Under the pieces are notes generated by a model. The model saw only the letters and a program-made list of their open reading frames with translations, was not told the DNA's origin and ran no database searches. A stretch of 25,814 bases of DNA from a virus. Location: positions 1-25,814 of the IMG/VR virus record IMGVR_UViG_3300048015_000078. One strand, written 5' to 3'. Made by a program: the position numbers and the translations under genes. Shown here one piece after another: positions 2,798-18,339 of the stretch (the stretch's first letter is position 1; every line of letters starts with the position of its first letter).

Positions 2798-2847
2798 ACG
2801 GGTGACGACTCGCGTTCGTCCTCGAGTAACGCCCCCGACGAACCCGT
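2798..2847. repeat. Bulged inverted repeat downstream of recombinase
   Basis: The 3' arm GACGAACCCGT (2837-2847) is complementary to two 5' segments, ACGGGT (2798-2803) and GTTCGTC (2814-2820). It lies in the 175-base gap between the recombinase stop and the ParB-like gene. It could be a terminator-like structure or part of a recombination site; there is no T-tract, and no crossover core can be identified. Confidence 0.3.
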
Positions 2848-2965
2848 GACCAGGGCGCGCAGCCGCAAGGGACGCATCGGACGCGGACCCCTCCTGCGCG
2901 GCCGACAAAGCCGCGGGACGGCCGGGAGAGACCGGCGCCGTACACACACGCACGAGGTACACGCG

Positions 2966-4468
2966 ATGGCGAAGCAGAACGACGGCGGTCCGGCCTTTCC
3001 CCGAACCGGCTTTTACCTCCCGACCGGGGACACGGCGCTCGCCGCGACCGGAGTTCCGGGCCGGGCCGCGGTGATTCGCCAGACGCTCCCGGTCGAATCG
3101 CTGTCGCTCCACCCCGAGGCGCACCGCGTCCCGGAGATGCCGCCCGACCAGTACGCCGCGTTCGCGGCGGACGTGAAGGTCCGCGGCGTGCTACAGCCGC
3201 TCAAGCTCAAGCCCGGCACTCGGCTGATCCTCGACGGCCGCACCCGGCTCCGCGCGGCCAAAGAAGCAGGTCTGGCGTCCGTACCGGTCGAAGAGGTCGT
3301 GCTCGACGTGGAGGACGCCGACGGCCTGCTCTACATGCTCCGCGCGGAGTTGAGTCGTCGCCACCTGACGCGCGACCAGCGGGCCGCACTCGCCGCCGAT
3401 CTCGAAGAGCAGTTCGCACGCGCGGCCAAGTCCCGTCAGAAAGACGCCGGGGCCAAAGGCGGTCACACGGCCGGGCGCGGCCGACCCAAAGAAAGGGGTG
3501 TGGCGGAAGCGCCACACCCCAACCCGGTACCGGCGCCTAAGTCGCGCGAACTGGCCGCGAAGGTCACCGGCGCCAACCCGCGGGCCGTGTCGGACGCGAA
3601 GCTCGTCAAGGCGAATGCTCCCCACCTGCACCTGCGCGTGAAGGACGGCAGCATGAAGCTGGCCCACGCGACCCGGCAGGTGAAGGCCGCGGCCGAGCCG
3701 AAGCCGGCCCGCGGGGGGGCCGGCACCGAGGCGGTCAAAGCCGTCGAGGTCGTGCCGGCCGCGGCCGAGCCGAAGCCGCCCGTCGGCAGTGTGGTCGTCG
3801 TGCCGGTCGAGCCGGGATCGATGTCCCCGTGTCCGTTCTGCGGCTGCGTTCGGATCGCTCACCGCGTGCTCGTCGGGGGCATGCGGGCCTTCACCTGCGA
3901 GGACTGCCAGGCGCGCGGCCCGTCCCACGCCGAAGCCGAGGTCGCCCGCACCGCCTGGAACAAGCGGGCCCCGCCGCCGCCGCCGAAGCCGGAGCGGGCC
4001 GACCCGACCTCGGCCGCGCTGCGCGAGCTGGGCGGGTTTCCCGCCGCGCTCGCCACCGCCTGCAACCGTCACGGGTACACGACCGTGGGCGAGGTGCTGC
4101 GCGCCGCCGACGGGCTCGACGCGAGGCTGACCGAACCGGTGCGGATCTACGGCGTCCTGCGGCGCGTGCGCGGCACGTCGCCCGCGGTCGCCCTCAAGGC
4201 GACGAACGCGGTACTCGGCGCGTCGGGCCGCATGCACACCCGCCTCACGCGCACCGAGCTTGAGCGGGCCGCGTTCCCGGCTTCGGTGTACGGCTGGTCG
4301 ATCACGTACACGACCAATCGCGGCGACGAGCGCGACTGCCACTTCGTGGGCACCGAGGCCGTGGCCCGCAAGAAGGCCGCGCTCAAGACCGGGTTCGAGG
4401 CGGTGGTGAAGGCCGACCCGCTCACCGAGCGGCAGTACGTCGCCGCCTACGGCAAGGGGCGGATGTGA
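2966..4468 (+). CDS. ParB-like nuclease/CTPase-domain protein fused to Lar-type zinc ribbon
   Basis: A 500-residue protein, starting at ATG 2966 eight bases after GAGG; an upstream in-frame ATG at 2846 lacks support. Residues 7-11 contain GGPAF, a motif common near the N-terminus of small phage proteins. Residues about 41-112 form a ParB/Srx-type domain (SLSLHPEAHR…GVLQPLKLK…LILDGRTRLRAAKEAG). Residues about 286-335 match the Lar/restriction-alleviation zinc ribbon: C289PFC292G, C311-x2-C314, and a terminal TAWNKRA. Basic, Pro/Ala-rich linkers separate the parts. Residues about 350-420 are helical and resemble nothing I can name. Lar of the Rac prophage relieves type I restriction; ParB-like domains bind DNA and CTP. 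DNA binding is likely, but the exact role is unknown. Confidence 0.8.
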   Translation: MAKQNDGGPAFPRTGFYLPTGDTALAATGVPGRAAVIRQTLPVESLSLHPEAHRVPEMPPDQYAAFAADVKVRGVLQPLKLKPGTRLILDGRTRLRAAKEAGLASVPVEEVVLDVEDADGLLYMLRAELSRRHLTRDQRAALAADLEEQFARAAKSRQKDAGAKGGHTAGRGRPKERGVAEAPHPNPVPAPKSRELAAKVTGANPRAVSDAKLVKANAPHLHLRVKDGSMKLAHATRQVKAAAEPKPARGGAGTEAVKAVEVVPAAAEPKPPVGSVVVVPVEPGSMSPCPFCGCVRIAHRVLVGGMRAFTCEDCQARGPSHAEAEVARTAWNKRAPPPPPKPERADPTSAALRELGGFPAALATACNRHGYTTVGEVLRAADGLDARLTEPVRIYGVLRRVRGTSPAVALKATNAVLGASGRMHTRLTRTELERAAFPASVYGWSITYTTNRGDERDCHFVGTEAVARKKAALKTGFEAVVKADPLTERQYVAAYGKGRM

Positions 4469-11509: not shown

Positions 11510-11770
11510 GTGGAACCCACCGACCTGACCGGGGACATCGCGCAGCAGGCCGTCGAGCCGGTGGCGAGCACCGCCGACGGGCAATCCAACACCGGCCGCG
11601 CGGTCGGCGAGCTCATCAAGGCCCAGCAGTTCCTCGACGCCAAGGCGGCGCTCGCCAACCGCCGCCGCGGGCTCACCTACACCCGCCTCGTCACCCCCGG
11701 CGCGCTTGACGACTGCGGCCGCGCGGTCGGCGGCAACTTCGACAACACGTTCTTCGGGGGCTTCTGCTGA
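11510..11770 (+). CDS. Small head protein, positional analogue of a gpW-type connector
   Basis: 86 residues from GTG 11510, seven bases after GGAG; GTG 11426 gives a longer 114-residue product whose first 28 residues look unlike coding sequence. The sequence has a helix (IAQQAVEPVAST), ADGQSN, a helix (VGELIKAQQFLDAKAALANR), and RRGLTYTRLVTPGAL. This helix / 'DGQ' / helix / beta pattern is the one seen in small proteins between terminase and portal genes in lambda-like phages, where gpW plugs the portal. The assignment is by position and size, not by clear homology. The 120 bases before the upstream GTG hold no gene. Confidence 0.55.
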   Translation: MEPTDLTGDIAQQAVEPVASTADGQSNTGRAVGELIKAQQFLDAKAALANRRRGLTYTRLVTPGALDDCGRAVGGNFDNTFFGGFC

Positions 11771-11774
11771 CACC

Positions 11775-13256
11775 GTGTTCCAGTGGCTGCGATCACTGGT
11801 CGGCTTCGGCCGCGGCGCACCCGCACGCGGCGGGCACATCGCCGCGCGCTACGACAACGCGCTCACCACGCCCGAGAACGTGCGCAACTGGTGGGGTGCG
11901 GACTGGATGTCCGCGAAGTCCGCGAACAACTACAACGTGCGGCGCCAGCTCCGCATCCGCTCCCGATACGAGGTGTCGAACAACCCGTACCTGTTCGGCG
12001 TCGCCAACGGCAACGCCGACGACTTCGTCGGGGTCGGCGGCCCGACGCTCCAGATCAAGACCCCCGACGCCCCCTACAACCGGGCCGTCGAGGAGTCCTG
12101 GAACGAGTGGTGCGGCGAGATCGACCTGTGCGACAAGCTCCGCACCCTGAAGCTCGCGAAGACGATCGACGGCGAAGGGTTCCTGGTTTTGAAGACCGCC
12201 AACCTCGACCACCCGGTGAAGCTGTACCCGGTGGACGTCGAGGCCGACCAGGTCACCACGCCGGCGCCCCGGGACCTCGGCGAGCTGTGGGTGGACGGGC
12301 TGGTGCTGGACCCGGTCACGGGGCTGCCCGTGGCCTACGACGTGCTCAAGCACCACCCGGGCGATTACTACTTCCCGGACTTCCACCCGCTGGCCGTCGA
12401 GCGGATCTCGGCCCGGTACGTGGTCCAGTGGTTCCCCAAGTTCCGCCCGGGGCAGGTGCGCGGGGTGCCGGTCTTCACCCCGAGCCTGGACCTGTTCGCC
12501 GAGCTGCGGGCGTTCCGCCGCGCGACCCTCGGGGCCGCGGAGATCGCCGCCGACTACGCCGCGGTGGCCCAGCAGGACCGCGAGACCGGCGCGTACGAGC
12601 CGGACGCGGACACGGGCCAGGAGTACCAGCCGTTCAGTCGCGTCCCGCTCGTGCGGAAGATGATGACCGTGCTTCCGCCCGGGATGACGCTCAACCAGCT
12701 CAAGAGCGAGCACCCGACGACCACCTACGAGATGTTCAGCACGGTGTGCCTGGGCGAGGCGATCCGGCCCCTGTCGTACCCGCTCAACCTGGCGCTGGGC
12801 ACGTCGCAGAAGTTCAACTTCTCGTCCGCCAAGCTGGACCACATCAACTACCGGAACTCGCTCACGATCGAGCGGAACCAGTGCAACCGCGGGCCGCTCG
12901 ATCGGATCTTCCGCGCGTGGCACGAGGAGGCGGTGCTGTGCGGCGCGATCCCGGTGGGCCGCGGGCTGACCCCGCCGCCCCGGGCGTGGCACTGGCCCGG
13001 GTACGAGAGCATCGACCCGCTCGTGGACACCCAGGCCGCGACCCAGCAGATCGCCGGCGGGATCCTCACCCTGCGCGACTTCTGGGGCCGCCGCGGCGAG
13101 GACTGGCGGGCGGTGCTCGGCCAGCTCGCCGCCGAGAAGCGCGAGCTGGAGCGGCTCGGGCTGACCTTCGGCGACGTGGTCACCCGGTCCCTCACCAAGA
13201 CCGACAGCCTGACGGAGACCGAGGAAGCGACCGGGGAGCCCGCCCATGCCGCGTGA
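11775..13256 (+). CDS. Phage portal protein, lambda family
   Basis: 493 residues from GTG 11775 (MFQWLRSLVGFGRG); an ATG at 11706 would lie inside the preceding gene. Portal proteins form the dodecameric ring through which DNA enters and leaves the head. The N-terminal half has RYDNALTTPENVRNWWGAD and the repeated aromatic/charged blocks of lambda gpB-like portals. The middle has DGEGFLVLK, then VQWFPKFRPGQVRGVPVF, matching the family's conserved 'F…R.GQ.RG.P…' block, and later SSAKLDHINYRNSLTIERNQ. The size and position between packaging genes and the protease/capsid gene agree. The stop overlaps the next gene by eleven bases. Confidence 0.9.
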   Translation: MFQWLRSLVGFGRGAPARGGHIAARYDNALTTPENVRNWWGADWMSAKSANNYNVRRQLRIRSRYEVSNNPYLFGVANGNADDFVGVGGPTLQIKTPDAPYNRAVEESWNEWCGEIDLCDKLRTLKLAKTIDGEGFLVLKTANLDHPVKLYPVDVEADQVTTPAPRDLGELWVDGLVLDPVTGLPVAYDVLKHHPGDYYFPDFHPLAVERISARYVVQWFPKFRPGQVRGVPVFTPSLDLFAELRAFRRATLGAAEIAADYAAVAQQDRETGAYEPDADTGQEYQPFSRVPLVRKMMTVLPPGMTLNQLKSEHPTTTYEMFSTVCLGEAIRPLSYPLNLALGTSQKFNFSSAKLDHINYRNSLTIERNQCNRGPLDRIFRAWHEEAVLCGAIPVGRGLTPPPRAWHWPGYESIDPLVDTQAATQQIAGGILTLRDFWGRRGEDWRAVLGQLAAEKRELERLGLTFGDVVTRSLTKTDSLTETEEATGEPAHAA

Positions 13257-15760: not shown

Positions 15761-16534
15761 ATGAGCGGCCGCAAGAAGATCGTGTGCCTGGGCATGCCGA
15801 GCTACGGCGACCTGAGTGCCGGCGCGGCGCTGGCGTTCTTCTGCGCTTCGCGGGACCCGGGGCTCACGGTCCACCGGCGGCACGACGCGAGCTCGCTGCT
15901 CGCGCACAATTTCAACCGCCTGTGGTGCTGGGGGCTGAACGAGGCACGGCACGGGGGCGGGTGCGATTACTTCGCCATGCTCCACGCGGACGTGGAGCCG
16001 GGGCCGGGCTGGCTCGACGCGCTGGTCGCCGAACTGGACGCCACCGGGCTCGACGTGCTCGGGGTCCCGGTGCCGATCAAGGACGGCCGCGGGCTCACGA
16101 GCACCGCCCTGGCCCGGGACGACGGCTCGACGTGGCGGGTCCACTCGCGGCTCACGCTGGCCGAGGTGACCGCGCTGCCGGAGACGTTCACCGCGGCCGA
16201 CCTGGGCGGCCGGCCGCTGCTCCTGAACACGGGCTGTTGGGTGTGCCGGTTCGATCCGGGGTGGGCCGAGCAGGTGTACTTCACCATCAACGACCGGATC
16301 GTGGTCGGCCCGGACGGCCGGTACGCGCCCGAGGTCGAGCCCGAGGACTGGTTCTTCTCGCGGCTGCTGCACGAGCGCGGGCTGGCGGTCGGCTGCACCC
16401 GCAAGGTGCGGCTGACGCACCGCGGGGCCGCGGCGTTCGCGAACGACCGCGTCTGGGGCACCAACCCGATCGACCACGAGTACGTGACCGAGAGCCCCCT
16501 CCGCACGGCGGGCGCGGTCCCAACCGAGGGCTGA
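15761..16534 (+). CDS. Glycosyltransferase-like protein in head module, copy 1
   Basis: 257 residues from ATG 15761, seven bases after GGGAA. The pattern is that of a GT-A (family 2-like) glycosyltransferase: an N-terminal beta strand and helix (KIVCLGMPSYGDLS), HNFNRLWCWGLNEAR, then FAMLHADVEPGPGW with a DxD-like HAD (residues 75-77), and a PEDWFFSRLL acceptor-side block (Glu195, Asp196). Close to the end come THRG (His220) and NDRVWGT. No signal peptide or membrane segment is seen, so it acts in the cytoplasm. It is clearly paralogous to the 16918-17670 product. Placed between capsid and decoration genes, it may modify virion proteins; sugar donor and acceptor are unknown. Confidence 0.75.
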   Translation: MSGRKKIVCLGMPSYGDLSAGAALAFFCASRDPGLTVHRRHDASSLLAHNFNRLWCWGLNEARHGGGCDYFAMLHADVEPGPGWLDALVAELDATGLDVLGVPVPIKDGRGLTSTALARDDGSTWRVHSRLTLAEVTALPETFTAADLGGRPLLLNTGCWVCRFDPGWAEQVYFTINDRIVVGPDGRYAPEVEPEDWFFSRLLHERGLAVGCTRKVRLTHRGAAAFANDRVWGTNPIDHEYVTESPLRTAGAVPTEG

Positions 16535-16537
16535 CCG

Positions 16538-16891
16538 ATGGCGATGGTTTACTTCCGCACCGGCAAGCCGATCACCGTCGCGTACACGCCCGCGGGCGGG
16601 AACGTGAACGCCGGCGACGTCGTGGTCCTGGGCAACACGGCCGGGCTCGGGCTCGGCGTCGCGCCGCTCGACATCCCCAACGGGACGCTCGGCGACCTGA
16701 CGATCTTCGGCGGCATCTACGACGTGGTGAACGAGTCGAACGCGGCCAACTGGGCGAAGGTGTACTGGGACGCCACGAACTCGAAGGTCACCACCACGAG
16801 CACGAACAACGCGCTGTTCGGGTACGTCGTGTCGGGCGGCGGCGGCGGGGCGAACACGACCGCGCAGGCGTTCCTCGACCCGACGCAGTGA
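16538..16891 (+). CDS. Capsid decoration/stabilising protein, DUF2190-like
   Basis: 117 residues from ATG 16538, seven bases after GAGGG and four bases past the previous stop. The sequence FRTGKPITVAYTPAGGNVNAGDVVVLGN…GVAPLDIPNGTLGDLTIFGGIYDV is the pattern of DUF2190 phage proteins: small beta-rich proteins that follow the capsid gene and decorate or stabilise the head. The C-terminus has a Thr/Ser/Asn-rich stretch (TTTSTNNALFGYV) and a Gly run, which would offer hydroxyl groups to a glycosyltransferase. Its position between two glycosyltransferase-like genes is unusual. Confidence 0.8.
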   Translation: MAMVYFRTGKPITVAYTPAGGNVNAGDVVVLGNTAGLGLGVAPLDIPNGTLGDLTIFGGIYDVVNESNAANWAKVYWDATNSKVTTTSTNNALFGYVVSGGGGGANTTAQAFLDPTQ

Positions 16892-16917
16892 CCGCACACC
16901 ACCCGAGGCCCCGCGTG

Positions 16918-17670
16918 ATGTCCGATCCCGTGCTGTTCCTCGCGCTCCCCGCCCGCCCGGTCGCGACCGCGCCGGGCACGACGATCGTCGTGCCCGCGCC
17001 GACCCGGCACCCGTACAAGGCGCGGCGCCGGCCGGGATCGCTGCTCAACCTGAACTTCAACCAGTTGTGGGCGGACGCGCTGAACGACCGGGCCGAGGTG
17101 CCGAGCCTGCGGTACTTCGCGATGTGCCACGACGACATCGAGCCGGTCCCCGGGTGGGCGGACCTGCTCGTCGAGGACCTGGAGCGGCTCCCGGCCGACG
17201 TCGTCAGCTCGGTGATCCCGCTCAAGGACGACCGCGGGCTGACCTCCACCGGCGTCTGGCAGCGCGAGACCGGCGGCGTCCGGCGGCTCACCATGACCGA
17301 GGTCATGAGCCTGCCGGAGACGTTCGGCCTCGTCCACCTGATCGGCGCCGGGCTGGCCGAGGCCGGCGACGTGCTCGCGATCAACACCGGGCTGTGGGTG
17401 TGCCGGCTCGACGCCGGCTGGGCCGAGCGGTTCCCGGGGTTCCGCAACGGGTGCGACGCCGTGGTGCGCGACGACACCGGCCGCTACCACGGCGTGTGCC
17501 TGTCCGAGGACTGGACCTTCGCGCTGTGGTGCGCGCAGGTCGGGCTGGCGGTGTACGCCACCCGCCGCGCGTCGGCCGCCCACGTGGCCGCCGACCGCAG
17601 CTACCCGAACGACCGCGCCTGGGGCACGTGGGTGACCGACCGGGGCGACCAAGAGGAGCCGCAATCGTGA
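16918..17670 (+). CDS. Glycosyltransferase-like protein in head module, copy 2
   Basis: 250 residues from ATG 16918; the adjacent GTG at 16915 is six bases from GAGG and equally possible. It shares a chain of blocks with the 15761 product: LNFNQLWADALNDR, YFAMCHDDIEPVPGW with HDD at 71-73 (a better metal-binding DxD-like site), KDDRGLTSTG, MSLPETF, INTGLWVCRLDAGWAER, LSEDWTF (Glu197, Asp198) and NDRAWGTW. The N-terminal 35 residues differ, lacking the KIVCLGMPSYG strand and starting instead with FLALPARPVATAPG. It appears to be a diverged duplicate, perhaps with another donor or acceptor. Its stop overlaps the next gene by GTGA. Confidence 0.75.
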   Translation: MSDPVLFLALPARPVATAPGTTIVVPAPTRHPYKARRRPGSLLNLNFNQLWADALNDRAEVPSLRYFAMCHDDIEPVPGWADLLVEDLERLPADVVSSVIPLKDDRGLTSTGVWQRETGGVRRLTMTEVMSLPETFGLVHLIGAGLAEAGDVLAINTGLWVCRLDAGWAERFPGFRNGCDAVVRDDTGRYHGVCLSEDWTFALWCAQVGLAVYATRRASAAHVAADRSYPNDRAWGTWVTDRGDQEEPQS

Positions 17671-17972
17671 GCGACCCGAACACGACCGCCGCGCCCGTCG
17701 CGCCGAGCGGGGCCGAGCCGACCGACCTCCAGCGGGCCGCCGCGCACCTGCGCGAGCGGCTCGGCGCGAAGGCGGGCAAGGAGCTGGTGCTGATCGACCA
17801 CGACGCGCTCGAAGCGGTGACCGCGGCGATCCCCGAGGACCGGCACACGTACGCGACCCGGGCGCAGCGGGCCGGGTCGCACCGCGCCGTTCCGCGGTCC
17901 GCCGACCGCACCTGCTGGGTCCAGGCGCAGTGCCTGGCCGAAGTGCTGAAGGTCGCCAATGTCCCAGCTTAG
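17667..17972 (+). CDS. Small hypothetical protein in neck region
   Basis: 101 residues from GTG 17667, GTGA-coupled to the second glycosyltransferase-like gene and preceded by GAGGAG. It is helical, with an N-terminal Ala/Pro-rich stretch, then LQRAAAHLRERLGAKAGKELVLIDHDAL and a C-terminal CWVQAQCLAEVLKVA. A head-to-tail adaptor is possible by position. The next gene starts 14 bases before its end. Confidence 0.5.
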   Translation: MSDPNTTAAPVAPSGAEPTDLQRAAAHLRERLGAKAGKELVLIDHDALEAVTAAIPEDRHTYATRAQRAGSHRAVPRSADRTCWVQAQCLAEVLKVANVPA

Positions 17973-18339
17973 TTTGGGCCGGCGCGGGACCGCCGCCCGG
18001 GTCCGCCGGCAGAAGCTCGCGTCCGGGGTGGGCGTCACGTACACGCGGCTGTCCGGCGCGGTCCTGACGCTCACGGCCGTCCCGGCGCTGAGCGCGTTCC
18101 GCAGCGAGACGCTGCCCGGGCGGGTGGAGATCGCCGAGCGCGACTACATGGTCGCGGTGACCGACCTGGCCGCCGCCGGCGCCGAGCAGGTGCCCCAGAT
18201 CGGCGACCGGATCGCCGAGACGATCGACGGCACGGCGTGCACCTTCGAGGTCATGACCCCGACCAACGGCGAGCCGGCCTGGCGGTACGACGCGCAGGAC
18301 CGCGGGTTCTACCGGATCCACACCCAGCGGGTGGCCTGA
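17959..18339 (+). CDS. Putative head-tail joining (head-closure) protein
   Basis: 126 residues from ATG 17959, preceded by AAGG. A basic N-terminus (GRRGTAARVRRQKLASGVGVTYTR) leads into beta strands (LSGAVLTLTAVPA…RVEIAERDYMVAVTDLA) and ends with IGDRIAETIDGTACTFEVM…WRYDAQDRGFYRIHT. The 'gDRI…G…yeV…' beta pattern is that of small stopper/head-closure proteins such as lambda gpFII or SPP1 gp16. The assignment rests on this pattern and on position. Confidence 0.55.
   Translation: MSQLSLGRRGTAARVRRQKLASGVGVTYTRLSGAVLTLTAVPALSAFRSETLPGRVEIAERDYMVAVTDLAAAGAEQVPQIGDRIAETIDGTACTFEVMTPTNGEPAWRYDAQDRGFYRIHTQRVA

Follow-up and report, generated by a model that had tools for sequence, protein, structure and literature searches.

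Predicted GT-A glycosyltransferases on both sides of a decoration gene as candidate virion-glycosylation modules in phage head operons

The locus raises the question of why two glycosyltransferase-like genes, here named GT1 and GT2, lie within a phage head operon on either side of a capsid decoration gene, and which molecule their products would modify. The window, i.e. the whole stretch of DNA analysed, is a viral contig of 25.8 kb which may be a fragment, so that further genes are possible elsewhere in the genome. Glycosylated virions are on record for a small number of mycobacteriophages, in which the modification blunts recognition by antibodies.

Head gene content of the window

The head operon of the window consists of the genes for portal protein, protease-capsid fusion, GT1, decoration protein and GT2, a short possible ORF, and the gene for the head-tail joining protein, in this order (Table 1). 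The coordinates of GT1, the decoration gene and GT2 as given in an earlier, sequence-only reading were correct, and its description of a DUF2190-like decoration gene flanked by the GT pair after the capsid gene was borne out by the profile matches (56.1 bits for Phage_cement_2/DUF2190, above the Pfam cut-off of 24). GT1 is separated from the decoration gene by 3 nt and the decoration gene from GT2 by 26 nt, and there is an overlap of 4 nt between GT2 and the next possible start; on account of this tight spacing, the three genes are probably co-expressed.

The protease and the major capsid protein are seemingly fused into one protein. A single protein encoded in another part of the window (2846-4468) has both a region like the ParB N-terminus and a Lar restriction-alleviation domain (Pfam 2.2e-8).

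Table 1. Positions of the head-operon genes in the window and the evidence for their annotation.
Feature	Position	Strand	Evidence
Portal protein (lambda family)	11706..13256	+	Pfam PF05136, E 7.8e-39
Head-maturation protease and major capsid protein fusion, 813 aa	13246..15687	+	Phage_capsid_4, 2.4e-19; head-protease PHROGs
GT1, predicted soluble GT-A glycosyltransferase, 257 aa	15761..16534	+	AlphaFold2 model, PDB matches, motifs, gene order
Decoration (cement) protein, DUF2190/Phage_cement_2, 117 aa	16538..16891	+	Pfam, 5.2e-15; PHROG head-decoration family, 5.4e-11
GT2, predicted GT-A glycosyltransferase, 250 aa	16918..17670	+	AlphaFold2 model, tree, position in relatives
Head-tail joining protein (borders the decoration-GT2 segment downstream)	17959..18339	+	Pfam PF25138, 1.9e-19

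Two homologous subfamilies

GT1 and GT2 are homologous, with 45% identity within the record (E 3.8e-42) and 43% over 206 aa by BLASTP (E 3e-43), E values at which the resemblance is not due to chance; the sequence blocks previously listed as shared were found in both proteins. In a tree of 71 relatives, GT1 was placed in a 48-member clade (support 100/99), with L003 as its nearest member at 67%, and GT2 in another clade together with L079, L081, L084, L085, L088, L089 and L093 (95/95). A recent local duplication was not supported, given this separate, supported placement of GT2. The term paralogues, as applied to the pair earlier, is thereby loose: the genes are homologous but not a single duplicated pair, as they belong to two subfamilies, each of which recurs at a position of its own.

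The Pfam family PF00535 (Glycos_transf_2) was matched by GT1 at 19.3 bits and by GT2 at 16.0 bits, below the curated cut-off of 23.3, and 18 of the 71 family members matched it at E values up to 0.01 (best 4e-5). Neither protein had a match among the PHROG families or, by sequence, among PDB chains, and the NCBIfam and PADLOC searches of the GTs returned nothing useful. A profile match to the PDB prenyltransferase 3npk (E 0.82) was dismissed as chance. Relatives of GT1 and of the decoration protein were not found in 50,697 phage records, in which fused GT-methyltransferase forms gave only weak matches, to their methyltransferase part. A pattern search with the single GT2 sequence retrieved no relatives; the family alignment did retrieve them.

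Structural models and catalytic residues

Models, folded by AlphaFold2, and motif counts were based on 71 related sequences. The models of GT1 (pLDDT 95.8, pTM 0.91) and GT2 (pLDDT 91.8, pTM 0.89) shared the same best PDB match, STIV A197 (2c0n; Z 16.8 and 15.7, respectively), and both matched LH3 (Z 16.5 and 15.5), COLGALT1 (Z 15.0 and 14.0) and the chondroitin polymerase K4CP (Z 13.9 and 13.4), and numerous catalytic GT-A enzymes were matched at Z 12-15. A GT-A fold, which the sequence-only reading had suggested, is confidently predicted for both proteins from these models and matches. The A197 protein is an archaeal virus GT-A, aligned over 173 residues with an rmsd of 2.7 but at 16% identity and from another virus group and context. 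COLGALT1 and LH3 are collagen glycosyltransferases and thus protein-modifying, at Z 15.0 to 16.5 but 8-13% identity, and shared specificity is not claimed. The LH3 match spans its residues 293-519, which we take to be a non-catalytic accessory domain; as the match is apparently outside the catalytic domain, this neighbour says nothing on function.

The GT-A active site is defined by the DxD motif, the G-loop glycine, the xED motif and a C-terminal His (PMC7185993). The motif residues of GT1 are H75-x-D77, N156-T-G158, E195-D196-W197 and H220, where G158 was called the G-loop Gly by order and conservation. After the core strand 70-74, HxD takes the place of DxD, and variants of DxD such as DxH occur in GT27 (PMC7185993). 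Both H75 and D77 were present in all 71 sequences, which provides an invariant metal-site-like motif; G158 was likewise present in 71/71, the xED Asp in 68/69 and H220 in 69/69. In the alignment with K4CP, the last pair is model residue 224 and chain residue 390; if ungapped, this alignment would place H220 on the C-terminal His of K4CP, H386. GT2 retains every listed active-site residue. In comparison to the GT2-like GT-A group of PF00535, the fold, xED, G-loop and C-terminal His are common, whereas HxD instead of DxD and the scores below the cut-off set the proteins apart. We infer that GT1 and GT2 are both active enzymes, with a probably inverting mechanism as the xED Asp is retained.

A GT-A fold could also have been kept for a non-catalytic role, as a structural or chaperone part of the head. 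Catalytically dead GT-A proteins exist, e.g. COSMC (PMC7185993), and the genes are placed among structural genes; nevertheless, the metal-site, base and G-loop residues are near-invariant in 71 divergent sequences, and fusion to a methyltransferase domain has occurred repeatedly, both of which make this role very improbable compared with enzymatic activity.

Gene order and partner enzymes in relatives

Scans with the GT alignments returned over 130 contigs of viruses together with five metagenome bins of bacteria (L022 and L023 are from gammaproteobacterial bins), and removal of duplicates among the fetched loci left 108 non-redundant contigs, the window included. The order capsid-GT-decoration, which is the position of GT1, recurred in 45 of the 108, consistent with the conserved order anticipated for relatives. 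The order decoration-GT-connector, the position of GT2, was found in four (L102, L104, L120 and L128), and the order portal-GT-capsid in another four, while 12 gave partial views; the window has both the GT1 and the GT2 type. Of the remaining 43 contigs, 16 had their neighbouring genes tested, and in 13 of these a capsid gene of another type (phrog_10/617 or Phage_capsid) was upstream of the GT (L082, L020, L094, L019, and nine out of ten in a further set). The non-capsid neighbours were a tail-fibre match in L117 and an exonuclease in L087, with nothing recognisable in the gene tested in L096. The GT gene therefore adjoins different kinds of capsid gene.

Some loci had peculiarities of their own. 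Tandem genes that both matched phrog_10 (major head protein) were located upstream of the GT-methyltransferase fusion in L082:2975-5751 and L094:3559-6209. In L075:7001-7804, the GT was matched in two pieces about 100 bases apart, which suggests an insertion or a frame problem. One GT relative was on a long bacterial contig (L026, Planctomycetota, 444 kb).

Of the 45 capsid-GT-decoration contigs, 35 had a Methyltransf_24-like domain after the GT (E down to 1e-24); in the loci read by eye GT and methyltransferase were in one reading frame, with the exception of L003. In some loci of the decoration-GT-connector type (L024, L128, L104) the methyltransferase came before the GT, and a further methyltransferase-like ORF was seen by eye in L102. 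In one locus, a sulfotransferase-like gene (L022:8302-8889, PF13469 2.4e-7) was located between the GT-methyltransferase gene and the decoration gene. By profile, no methyltransferase was detected in the window. The methyltransferase and sulfotransferase partners suggest glycan tailoring. The fused methyltransferase domain of L006:4910-5380 matched PADLOC mad2 (E 1.8e-11), probably owing to general methyltransferase similarity only.

The cassette closest in kind is that of cluster O mycobacteriophages, in which genes for an O-methyltransferase (OMT) and three glycosyltransferases lie between those for portal and protease (PMC4351075); the order was read as portal - OMT - GT - GT - GT - protease - capsid in Firecracker and Catdawg. 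Thus it is no rule that phage glycosyltransferases are outside the morphogenesis block, where they had been said usually to be. The Corndog-type cassette (Corndog, Catdawg, Firecracker) resembles the window in having its GT genes within the head operon, but it includes an OMT, which the window lacks although 35 of 45 contigs of the same order have a methyltransferase. Furthermore, the cluster O enzymes are encoded by separate genes in the portal-protease position, in contrast to the GT-methyltransferase fusions beside the decoration gene in the relatives described here. A test for homology with the Corndog-type GTs gave nothing meaningful: hhalign of the 71-sequence GT profile against Catdawg gp34, gp35 and gp36 returned probabilities of 0.9, 1.0 and 5.9, and the enzymes are not recognisably related.

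The genomic context also bears on targets other than the virion. Phage glycosyltransferases can glycosylate modified DNA bases, according to publications cited in PMC12619734, and one gene of the window encodes a Lar restriction-alleviation domain, so modification of phage DNA (hypermodified bases) as an escape from restriction was considered. Among the tested genes of the window, which is a contig fragment, there was no base-modifying gene, and both the head-operon position across capsid types and the O-methyltransferase-like nature of the fused domains speak for another target; DNA is accordingly an improbable one. Alteration of the host surface, for seroconversion or superinfection exclusion, appears slightly less probable still. 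Temperate phages do carry surface-modifying glycosyltransferases (likewise cited in PMC12619734), but the models here are soluble and single-domain with no obvious membrane segment, no flippase-like partner was recognised beside the GTs, and the genes are within the late head operon, closely packed with the decoration gene. A target on the virion itself is the preferred reading.

Joint inheritance of GT1 and the decoration gene

A capsid-centred scan, independent of the GT, gave 79 new loci, of which only L163 represented a GT in a new contig (L171, L179 and L073 repeat earlier contigs); as some contigs are incomplete, the rate of GT presence counted here is a minimum. On this evidence, the GT is an accessory insert in the head operon.

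The portal (54-62%) and capsid (63-71%) of the window were closest to those of L172, L120, L162, L102, L163 and L164, hereafter the backbone group, in which no GT is located between capsid and decoration. Counted from the HMM start, the decoration proteins of the backbone group are 233-490 aa long and that of the window 116 aa, and all 47 GT1-adjacent decoration proteins are short like the latter (median 116). The window decoration protein had 50-65% identity to GT1-adjacent ones among the best matches, versus 36-43% to the backbone relatives, and shares with the GT1-adjacent ones a four-residue insertion and the segment TTTSTNNA. The strict motif STNNA was present in 37/47 GT1-adjacent, 0/54 GT-less and 0/8 backbone decoration proteins, a difference that follows clade boundaries and is therefore equivalent to one or few evolutionary events. 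Long Gly/Ala/Thr/Ser-rich repeat tails were observed after the DUF2190-like part of decoration-like proteins in L093:5752-6981, L165:6139-7437, L167:6064-7404 and L128:5176-6177.

The capsid tree placed the window within the backbone clade, and its relocation to the GT1 group was rejected (p 4e-81). The decoration tree placed the window outside the backbone clade; since forcing it in was not rejected by the AU test (p 0.31), a joint transfer of GT1 and the decoration gene is likely, not proven. From these comparisons, it is likely that GT1 and the short decoration gene came together from another lineage.

Among 35 non-redundant GT1-type phages, GT distances followed decoration distances when capsid was accounted for (partial r 0.41, p 0.001) but not capsid distances when decoration was accounted for (partial r 0.12, p 0.18), even though the GT adjoins the capsid gene too; partial Mantel tests such as these can yield false positives. 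We read the result as GT1 and the decoration protein having been inherited together, and linked inheritance need not equal enzyme-substrate pairing. On account of this joint inheritance, which is a correlation, the decoration protein is the likeliest acceptor of GT1.

With virion proteins glycosylated all the same, the main acceptor could instead be the major capsid protein or the tail tube, as in Corndog. The cluster O enzymes are reported to modify both capsid and tail tube (PMC11600133, citing Freeman et al. 2023); the GT1-type gene is directly 3′ of the capsid gene in 45 contigs, and in L093 the GT adjoins the connector gene. With regard to the capsid, however, GT divergence does not track it once decoration is accounted for, and in the window a GT1 from one lineage stands beside a capsid whose closest relatives are devoid of GT1. 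We consider such an acceptor unlikely, though it is the strongest of the alternatives. Of the earlier proposal that the GTs glycosylate decoration or capsid protein, the decoration half is supported by joint inheritance.

Proposed role of the modules

Our main reading, to which we assign a probability of about 0.6, is that these are accessory virion-glycosylation modules, in which GT1 and GT2 are active GT-A glycosyltransferases of the head operon and the decoration protein is the likeliest acceptor of GT1. Both enzymes would be expressed along with the head operon as soluble GT-A glycosyltransferases, most likely with host nucleotide sugars as donors for glycosylation of the phage head on its exposed surface. 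The GT1 unit would most likely modify Ser/Thr residues of the neighbouring decoration protein, and the O-methyltransferase domain, present after the GT in most relatives, would cap the added sugar. GT2 would represent the resident glycosyltransferase type of the capsid lineage of the window, while GT1 apparently arrived with the short decoration gene from another lineage. The presumed benefit is a virion shielded from binding or degradation, or an altered attachment. The earlier description of the cassette as self-contained was not supported, as no sugar-nucleotide synthesis gene was present in the checked parts of the window.

More tentatively, and at somewhat less than even odds, the decoration protein with its dedicated GT-methyltransferase may constitute exchangeable "glycan coat" modules, which are inserted at either of two fixed sites in head operons that are otherwise colinear, across several capsid types, and provide uncultured phages with swappable and chemically varied surfaces, methylated and in some cases sulfated; in that case the window would be a hybrid with two modules.

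If the main reading is true, virion glycosylation would be widespread in uncultured phages, linked to decoration proteins, and gained and lost as a module. Both acceptor and function would then be directly testable in close phage relatives with and without the module.
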